NCBI GenBank assembly: GCA_947588605.1
Contig: CANPYK010000005.1
Span: 1-64,000 of the forward strand
Direction: 5' to 3'
From: an uncultured Oscillospiraceae bacterium
Lineage (GTDB): Bacteria > Bacillota > Clostridia > Oscillospirales > Oscillospiraceae
Length of the DNA stretch: 64,000 bases
This document shows, one piece after another, positions 1,783 to 18,155 of this stretch. Each line of letters starts with the position of its first letter. Within the stretch, counting starts at the first letter, position 1. The notes under the pieces were generated by a model. That model saw only the letters and a list, made by a program, of their open reading frames with translations, was not told the DNA's origin and ran no database searches. The position numbers and the translations under genes were made by a program.

Positions 1783-1811
1783 TTGACAAACCGGGCGCGG
1801 GAGAGTATAAT
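1783..1811 (+). promoter_or_regulatory. Consensus promoter of module A (rightward RNA)
   Basis: A perfect TTGACA (1783-1788), 17-bp spacer and perfect TATAAT (1806-1811). No protein gene follows on this strand. It should start a short RNA near 1818 that ends at the hairpin at 1920-1960. Confidence 0.8.
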
Positions 1812-1817
1812 AAAGCC

Positions 1818-1963
1818 AGACAAAAGGGAGGGCGCCTCCAAACGCCTTCACCCGACAGTCTGACCCAGAAAGAAAGTTCGTTTTATCTTCACCGCAACAA
1901 AAATGTCACGGCAAAGATCAAAGGCCGATCGCTCTGCTTCAGCGGCGGTCTTTATCTTTTATT
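1818..1963 (+). ncRNA. Predicted small structured RNA of module A (candidate antitoxin RNA)
   Basis: This predicted transcript of about 145 nt runs from the consensus promoter to a bidirectional terminator. It contains a stem-loop (about 1885-1918) in which ATCTT pairs with AAGAT and an inner CCG pairs with CGG. In the second copy (near 17,730-17,760) the inner pair is CTG with CAG, a compensatory change that supports real structure. Its 3' end overlaps the end of the oppositely transcribed peptide mRNA. Ends are inferred, not measured. Confidence 0.6.
1920..1960. terminator. Shared bidirectional terminator of module A
   Basis: AAAGGCCG (1920-1927) pairs with CGGTCTTT (1946-1953) with one wobble, and an inner CGCT pairs with AGCG. 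A T-rich run follows on the plus strand; a weaker T-rich run lies on the minus strand. In copy B the outer stem is AAAGACCG with CGGTCTTT, a perfect match. The peptide stop codon lies inside this hairpin. Confidence 0.65.
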
Positions 1964-2022
1964 ACCTGGACCTGGATGGTGATCCGATATCCATGGTAAT
2001 GAAAGGTAAATGTAAAATACAT
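1939..2022 (-). CDS. 27-aa peptide, candidate type I toxin-like (module A)
   Basis: This unrecognised small gene begins MYFTFTFHYHGYR and ends in a charged KDKDRR tail. The first two thirds alternate hydrophobic or aromatic with polar residues, as an amphipathic beta-strand would, and no classical membrane helix is visible. A strong AAAGGAGGGG site (2031-2040) lies 8 bases upstream of the ATG, and a perfect minus-strand promoter lies at 2105-2133. The stop codon is inside the shared terminator. Copy B (start 18032) would encode nearly the same peptide once its MITE is removed (I to F at position 14 and one extra KD), so the frame is conserved. Toxicity is inference from the layout, which resembles the convergent Fst/par type I system. 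It could instead be a signalling or leader peptide. Confidence 0.6.
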   Translation of the reverse strand: MYFTFTFHYHGYRITIQVQVIKDKDRR

Positions 2023-2104
2023 CTACACACCCCCTCCTTTCGGAAAGAGTGGTCAGACCGTCGTATTGTCGGCTCCGGCGCCCTTCAGCGCCCTCCGCCC
2101 TCCC

Positions 2105-2133
2105 ATTATACCGCCCGAGGCGAAATTTGTCAA
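2105..2133 (-). promoter_or_regulatory. Consensus promoter of the peptide mRNA (module A)
   Basis: Read on the minus strand it is TTGACA, a 17-bp spacer and TATAAT, all perfect matches. It faces the promoter at 1783-1811 across about 300 bp. The predicted start near 2098 gives a leader of about 75 nt before the peptide ATG. Confidence 0.8.
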
Positions 2134-17621: not shown

Positions 17622-17651
17622 TTGACAACCAAGGCGGCGGGAGGGTATAAT
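17622..17651 (+). promoter_or_regulatory. Promoter of module B (rightward RNA)
   Basis: TTGACA (17622-17627), 18-bp spacer, TATAAT (17646-17651). It corresponds to the module A promoter at 1783-1811. Confidence 0.78.
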
Positions 17652-17657
17652 AGAGAC

Positions 17658-17810
17658 GGGCAAGGAGAGAGGGAGCGGCCGCACGCCTTCACCTGACAGC
17701 CTGGCCCGAGATACTGGGATTTGTGATCTTCACTGCAACAAACCTGTCACAGCAAAGATCAAAGACCGTTCGCTCTGGCTCAGCGGCGGTCTTTATCTTT
17801 ATCTTTTATT
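17658..17810 (+). ncRNA. Predicted small structured RNA of module B
   Basis: This second copy of the small RNA keeps its promoter, the inner stem in compensated form (CTG with CAG in place of CCG with CGG) and the AAAGACCG/CGGTCTTT terminator followed by T-rich sequence. It appears intact although the opposing peptide gene is broken. Ends are inferred. Confidence 0.55.
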
Positions 17811-18032
17811 ACCTGGACTTGGATGGTGAATCTGTATCCATGGTAATGAAAGGTAAATGTAATACTAACATCTATTTAAAAGAAGACACCGAGCGGCGTG
17901 GATTTTTTGCGTCAGGCAAGGAAGACGCCGCAGGGAATACCCTTTGGTATTTCCAAGGCGGCTGACGCGGCATGACGCGAAAAAGACCGGCGCGAATGAC
18001 TTCTTTTAATTAGATATTAGTATAAAATACAT
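17778..18032 (-). pseudogene. Module B peptide gene, interrupted by a MITE
   Basis: The ATG at 18032 with its AAAGGAGGGG site and promoter (18127-18155) is intact. After three codons the frame enters the MITE and stops (MYFILISN). The rest of the peptide frame continues beyond the element (about 17778-17862) and would restore a peptide almost identical to that of module A. This is a disrupted copy of the 27-aa gene. Confidence 0.75.
17863..18022. mobile_element. MITE copy 2 (160 bp) inside module B
   Basis: This relative of the element at 2410-2568 has terminal inverted repeats starting TACTAACATCTA and ending TAGATATTAGTA, flanked by TAA on both sides (17860-17862 and 18023-18025). Module A carries the uninterrupted target with a single TAA at 2013-2015, so the boundaries and a 3-bp target duplication can be read directly. 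The internal sequence folds back on itself, and no protein is encoded. Confidence 0.9.
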
Positions 18033-18126
18033 CTACACACCCCCTCCTTTCGGAAAGAGTGGCCAGACCGTCGTATTGTCGGATCCGGCGCCAGCCGCGC
18101 CCTCCGCCCCTTGCGGGACTGACCGT

Positions 18127-18155
18127 ATTATACCGCCCACCGCAAATCTTGTCAA
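18127..18155 (-). promoter_or_regulatory. Promoter of the disrupted module B peptide
   Basis: On the minus strand: TTGACA (18150-18155), 17-bp spacer, TATAAT (18127-18132). It matches the module A promoter at 2105-2133. Confidence 0.75.

Follow-up and report, generated by a model that had tools for sequence, protein, structure and literature searches.

A conserved peptide gene with an opposing antisense promoter in gut and rumen Oscillospirales, a candidate type I toxin-antitoxin-like module

The window analyzed here, a 64-kb stretch of DNA from an uncultured Oscillospiraceae bacterium, contains at positions 1783-2133 a 351-bp unit composed of two convergent sigma-70 promoters, a 27-codon frame behind a hairpin with the Shine-Dalgarno (SD) sequence, and one terminator common to both directions. 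We regard it as almost certain that the unit contains a peptide gene that is conserved and under selection and is faced by an opposing promoter. Furthermore, we assign a probability of roughly 0.65 to the reading of the unit as a type I toxin-antitoxin-like module on the chromosome, in which an antisense small RNA would probably hold the peptide silent. This reading had been put forward in the original prediction, and the sequence tests described below support it, namely the recurrence of the unit, the selection on the peptide, the conservation of the promoters, and the persistence of the antisense side after loss of the peptide. As judged from genome and metagenome sequences, Oscillospirales of the gut and rumen carry the unit, often in several copies.

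The unit in the window and its second copy

The two perfect TTGACA-17-TATAAT promoters that the original prediction had placed face to face were found at 1783-1811 (forward strand) and 2105-2133 (reverse strand). Perfect sites with a spacer of 16-18 nt occurred six times in the whole 64-kb window versus none in 100 shuffles, and four of the six fell within the two copies of the unit. The promoter at 1783-1811 would give rise to an antisense RNA, a putative antitoxin, with a predicted length of 146 nt (1817-1962, forward strand), close to the structured RNA of about 145 nt that had been claimed. Its fold z was -3.66 against 200 shuffles, and it fits the covariance model of this RNA, being itself one of the 12 model sources. 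The promoter at 2105-2133 would produce the peptide mRNA (1918-2098, reverse strand, with ends derived from the promoter and the terminator; start codons and transcript ends were inferred for all units), and the mRNA predicted over 2106-1915 gave a fold z of -4.26, likewise against 200 shuffles. The claimed 27-codon frame with an SD sequence corresponds to an ORF at 1939-2022, read from 2022 to 1939 on the reverse strand, which encodes the 27-aa peptide MYFTFTFHYHGYRITIQVQVIKDKDRR and a stop codon and is preceded by a predicted hairpin containing the SD sequence (2028-2051, reverse strand). The hairpin at 1920-1953 would act on both strands as a bidirectional terminator and also codes for the last residues of the peptide and its stop, in agreement with the claim of a common hairpin with the stop inside it, and compensatory changes were present there in relatives.

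Two inverted repeat pairs, each of 92%, and no direct repeats were found in the window unit, so that both RNAs begin with like sequence. The first leader motif, CGACAGTCTGACC (1853-1865, forward strand), has its mRNA copy CGACGGTCTGACC at 2051-2063 (reverse strand), just 5' of the SD hairpin, while the second, AAAGGGAGGGCG (1823-1834, forward strand), is repeated at 2096-2107 (reverse strand), where it extends into the -10 box. The unit is flanked by a malic-enzyme gene on one side and a gene for an S-layer-domain protein on the other; the intergenic DNA 5' of the malic-enzyme gene (61-470) appeared repeat-rich by eye.

The second copy (17622-18155), whose neighbors are genes for an amidase-domain protein and an acetate kinase, had been said to keep the same design. 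This was borne out for the two promoters and the whole antisense side but not for the peptide, which is broken. The antisense promoter (17622-17651, forward strand) has an 18-nt spacer, the antisense RNA (17658-17803, forward strand) is matched by the covariance model without being one of its sources, and the mRNA promoter lies at 18127-18155 (reverse strand). A MITE-like repeat of about 166 bp (17860-18025) interrupts the peptide at its fourth codon, so that the frame from the start codon (18006-18032, reverse strand) reads MYFILISN*. The part 3' of the insertion (ITFTFHYHGYRFTIQVQVIKDKDKDRR, 17780-17863, reverse strand) was recognized by the peptide profile; over the 19 codons beyond the insertion it differs from the first copy by three synonymous and one non-synonymous changes, and the frame contains an additional in-frame insertion of 6 nt. 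The second copy is thus evidence that the unit as a whole is conserved, but not that the peptide stays intact.

The same repeat (about 166-170 bp, also present at 2405-2575) has 29 near-full-length copies in this genome, the search having returned 84 matches in all when reverse-strand matches to the same copies are counted. It is inserted a few bases past the start codon in two units of the MYF peptide group (C5:17792 and C1:56475), and a similar repeat adjoins the peptide core of another subfamily in genome G022 (locus L029). Repeated insertion near the peptide start suggests a preferred target or recurrent knock-outs.

The peptide family: distribution, selection, and predicted shape

A profile of the peptide gave six matches in the genome of origin. 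Four are of the MYF type, two of which are intact and two interrupted by the repeat; the remaining two belong to other subfamilies, and one of these lacks its 5' end. At E ≤ 0.1 the profile matched 15 of the 34 genus genomes, and at E ≤ 0.01 it matched 28 of 200 genomes of the family, spread over 22 of 106 genera. This is in line with the original prediction, which had called for recurring units with a conserved peptide across Oscillospiraceae. The order sample yielded 10 of 295 genomes, several of them weak and with the genome of origin and G185 already counted, and the class sample 2 of 391, i.e., the genome of origin and one weak match. Two matches outside the genus (G043 and G056) lay inside longer frames and were dropped as chance. 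Among GTDB r220 contigs, 147 of 152 stretches found with a sequence pattern encoded a relative, and the best 80 of the 147 were kept; the contig titles include Oscillospiraceae, Ruminococcaceae, Lachnospiraceae, Clostridiales, Oscillibacter, Lawsonibacter, and Subdoligranulum, and the carriers are mostly metagenome-assembled genomes, many of rumen or gut origin. Together with 27 genus and 30 family loci, these 80 named loci make up a set of 137 units, in which the commonest peptide form is approximately MPITLTFHIFGYTVTITVKSRNRHSAK. Loci with an unclear 5' end (among them L020, L023, L029, L033, L036, L049, L076, and L078) were removed from the set by hand, which biases it toward intact peptides, and for L058 the script chose a wrong start.

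The original prediction had not recognized the peptide family, and our searches agreed with this. No Pfam or NCBIfam family scored above its cut-off for the peptides, nor did any PHROGs or PADLOC family for the 17 genus-level peptides scanned, and no peptide match was found among PDB sequences. Rfam 15 gave no match above the gathering score over the window and none over the unit in 6 + 20 related loci. A weak likeness to Bac_small_YrzI (PF09501/TIGR02413), seen for 3 of 31 members in Pfam (best E 0.024) and 2 of 31 in NCBIfam (best E 0.043), was taken as chance among short beta-patterned peptides. The peptide strings were absent from the open-access literature searched, and no such unit appeared in titles or abstract openings on type I systems of Oscillospiraceae, Ruminococcaceae, or Faecalibacterium; likewise, ruminococc, oscillo, and faecalibacterium do not occur in the available part of a review on type I systems of Clostridia (PMC6563280). 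In Vescimonas fastidiosa MM35, the single locus inspected had no annotated gene over the peptide, in a gene table known to be incomplete. Matches to five viral contigs (in one pattern scan), two unannotated phages, and one plasmid record were noted, and a mobile origin was set aside. Near individual units, we observed a T-box leader-like match below the gathering score (L013, 1035-1270, reverse strand; 67.8 bits versus 93) and group II intron matches above it (L075, 91-243 and 1733-1816, forward strand).

Since all 80 named loci had been found by the pattern MPITLTFH, codons 9-20, which lie outside this motif, were counted separately. Over these codons, pN/pS was 0.39 in the canonical group (77 distinct sequences, 1995 pairs with at least 70% identity), 0.21 in the MYF group, to which the window peptide belongs (10 sequences, 40 pairs), and 0.44 in a third small group of four distinct sequences, whereas the shifted-frame controls gave 1.13, 1.31, 1.66, and 2.40. 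By this measure, the frame is under purifying selection as a protein. The contrast between 0.21-0.39 in the two main groups and values above 1.1 in shifted frames also bears on the original prediction, according to which the peptide frame should be conserved in other copies rather than broken without bias, and it speaks for conservation. For codons 21-27, which double as the terminator, pN/pS was 0.70, so that part of the constraint on the C-terminal residues may come from the RNA. Departures from an intact frame also occur: that of L091 stops after 20 codons, and that of L031 is frameshifted past the core.

The peptides have a mean net charge of about +4 and a charged tail. For residues 3-18 of the canonical peptides (n = 70), the hydrophobic moment was 0.44 at 170 degrees, where shuffled peptides gave 0.19 (sd 0.10), and 0.11 at 100 degrees. 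The corresponding values for the MYF peptides (n = 10) were 0.49 and 0.30 versus 0.24 (sd 0.12) for shuffles; here the beta signal is weaker, with an alpha moment of 0.30 and a mean hydrophobicity of only 0.20. A canonical member of 32 residues, modeled by AlphaFold2 from an alignment with 20 relatives, showed strands at residues 3-9 and 12-18 (mean pLDDT 76, about 86 over residues 1-20, pTM 0.32); this member has an unusual C-terminus and is other than the window peptide. These results are in line with the claimed beta pattern, and the family is predicted to form a cationic amphipathic beta-hairpin. A solved-fold search with the predicted structure returned seven matches, none at E ≤ 0.001.

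The antisense side and RNA structure in relatives

Promoters were scored in the 134 of 137 units with enough flank on each side. The opposing promoter reached at least 10 of 12 in 132 of these 134 peptide-found units versus 4 of 274 control windows of 250 bases, and the peptide's own promoter in 107 versus 3 of 274 windows of 200 bases, the controls being random, mostly coding stretches of the same loci rather than matched intergenic DNA. All 134 units had an opposing promoter of at least 9, while the own promoter fell below 8.5 in 15. An antisense RNA gene with its own promoter, complementary to the mRNA, is predicted by the opposing promoter (132/134) together with the common terminator. Among the 116 units with both promoters, the median length from -35 to -35 was 294 bp, and the antisense promoter was stronger than that of the mRNA in 85, weaker in 9, and equal in 22; this difference is absent from the window copy, where both are perfect.

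The covariance model of the small RNA, suggested in the original prediction, could be built from 12 sequences and found matches in 23 of 34 genus genomes at E ≤ 0.1, some of them weak. The best 30 loci in the genus (those with E ≤ 2.7e-6 among 65 model matches) all had an antisense promoter of at least 11. Since 12 of the 30 were model sources picked with both promoters present, only the other 18 give a fair count: in these, the promoter scored at least 11 in 18 of 18, while an intact peptide was missing in 8 of 18 (two repeat insertions, three reduced to the last codons, three without the 5' end). The 12 sources comprised 11 intact peptides and one frameshifted. Intact and broken frames were called by eye, and 4 of the 21 counted as intact need a GTG start. 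Such one-sided loss is what one would expect if the antisense RNA were the antidote to a dispensable toxin, although an antisense RNA serving some other function would fit as well. Extra peptide-less antisense copies with promoter and terminator adjoin complete units at L252 (G017:C39:8734-8872) and L229 (G011:C9:2699-2833).

Structure was analyzed with RNAalifold in 44 of the 70 canonical units (mRNAs less than 80% alike), and the mRNA consensus contained the terminator, the SD hairpin, and base pairs between the leader and the region of the start codon. Two-sided changes affected 8 of 18 mRNA pairs: five belong to the terminator, where as many as 15 of the 44 sequences were changed, and three are among the five pairs of the SD hairpin, each changed in a single sequence; the start-codon/leader pairing is uninformative because it is almost invariant. 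For the 44 antisense RNAs, such changes were seen in 6 of the 11 predicted pairs, and each of these six lies in the terminator; the antisense leader hairpin is outside this count since the aligner gives no single register for it. A long-range closure of the mRNA between GGCGGTT in the leader and AACCGCC at the ORF end is possible, and its columns hardly vary. In L126 and L127, a repeat-like segment of about 110 nt lies in the mRNA leader 5' of the SD hairpin, and the peptide is intact.

The likeness of the two leaders extends beyond the window. Leader tests covered 108 of the 116 two-promoter units (leader of at most 110 nt) and then 102 of the 108. Same-sense alignment within a unit scored a mean of 30.8 in the 108 units versus 19.6 (sd 0.5) for permuted units; the reverse complement gave 15.1, and shuffles gave 15.0. 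In 44 non-redundant units, the same-sense mean was 28.7 versus 19.7 (sd 0.7). When the own partner was compared with the partner of the unit having the nearest mRNA leader (44 units), it won 31 times, lost 10, and tied 3, which indicates that each unit maintains or renews the likeness of its leaders. Two ways of direct pairing between leaders were rejected. For kissing of the leader motifs, the ungapped score was reached by 14 of 1000 permutations in 102 units and by 184 of 1000 in 56 distinct types; an energy test gave z -6.9, and other energy tests |z| of about 4, one of them opposite in direction (+3.6), so that part of the former value may be due to the units being related. Between the antisense 5' end and the mRNA leader, the pairing came to 8 nt in four of the 27 genus units and to 4-7 nt in the remaining 23.

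Proposed explanation, alternatives, and known systems

The toxin-antitoxin-like reading may be set out as follows. One promoter would yield a short mRNA with its SD sequence in a predicted hairpin and a frame of about 27-33 codons under protein selection, and the second, usually stronger promoter a predicted opposite-strand RNA of roughly 100-150 nt. Since one terminator serves both, the two RNAs should be complementary over about 35-45 nt, including the last codons. The antisense RNA would then pair with the mRNA through the common terminator palindrome, perhaps aided by the 5' leader present in the same sense on both RNAs, and the pairing would leave the mRNA untranslated or get it cut. Once the antisense RNA drops, the cationic amphipathic beta-hairpin peptide would be made and act on the cell, probably on the membrane; it is its toxic action and target that we infer here.

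The main competitor of this reading, which we consider unlikely though not negligible, is a small protein other than a toxin with an antisense regulator, for example, a condition-dependent signaling, envelope, or antimicrobial peptide. Any regulated small protein could have a frame under selection and a pair of conserved promoters, and a cationic amphipathic beta-hairpin could act on other cells; however, the four genes flanking the window copies are unlike an exporter or immunity gene, and an antisense promoter kept beside a lost peptide (8/18) fits an antidote better. Distinctly less probable is a selfish, repeat-like element with inward promoters, whose frame and structures would serve its spread or be by-products. 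Its leaders are inverted repeats, it is multi-copy and intergenic, and at the 3' end of the malic-enzyme gene 3 of the 18 readable genus genomes have the unit (21 loci, 3 unreadable), but the peptide frame is under selection and the terminator shows compensatory changes. Such an element could itself carry a toxin-antitoxin pair.

Membership in the Fst/Ldr (par) family appears very improbable, although the layout is alike. According to the available part of PMC7472228, par of pAD1 has convergent promoters, a bidirectional terminator common to both RNAs, an SD sequence in a 5' stem-loop, and a peptide of about 30 residues with a charged C-terminus, so that the Fst/par-like layout of the original prediction stands as regards the promoters, the terminator, and the SD hairpin. 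It does not stand for the direct repeats, which in par serve as a second complementary region: the window unit has none and two inverted pairs instead, and both RNAs have the same leader, alike in the same sense and at the level of shuffles as reverse complement. The transmembrane helix-tryptophan-charged-tail signature described for Fst is also absent, a beta-hairpin being predicted instead and only the charged tail being common to both, and no Pfam or NCBIfam family is above cut-off for the peptide. In addition, the terminator here codes for the end of the peptide, and the predicted antisense RNA is longer than the RNA II of about 40 nt given for par in the same source.

Convergent genes with a 3'-end overlap are likewise described for SprA/SprAAS, TxpA/RatA, and C. 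difficile CD2517.1/RCd8 in the available parts of PMC8167048 and PMC6563280, and the Bacillus section of the former reports an antitoxin promoter ten times stronger than that of the toxin. Unlike the peptide studied here, the toxins of these systems are described as membrane proteins of small size and hydrophobic character, whose structures, in so far as they have been solved or predicted, are alpha-helical; no Pfam or NCBIfam link to the peptide was found. All membrane-associated type I toxins in the accessible portion of a 2021 review (PMC8309996) have an alpha-helical transmembrane domain, which the peptide is not predicted to have as judged by its hydrophobic moment and AlphaFold2, so that a beta-hairpin toxin would be new among those covered. 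Whether the units amount to a new type I class, widespread in gut and rumen Oscillospirales but overlooked and combining a cationic amphipathic beta-hairpin toxin with recognition via the terminator palindrome and an inverted duplicated leader whose two versions stay similar within a unit, is a more tentative matter, and we would place the odds somewhat below even.

If the toxin-antitoxin-like reading is true, an easily missed toxin-antidote pair is present, often in multiple copies, across a large group of bacteria of the gut and rumen, with a toxin fold outside the known alpha-helical type and another layout of RNA-RNA recognition. The loci that retain the antidote side after loss of the peptide would, in addition, provide a natural series. 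Tandem units of different subfamilies, about 410 bp apart, were observed at two places (G027:C63, 797/1203, and G019:C46, 3297/3711).
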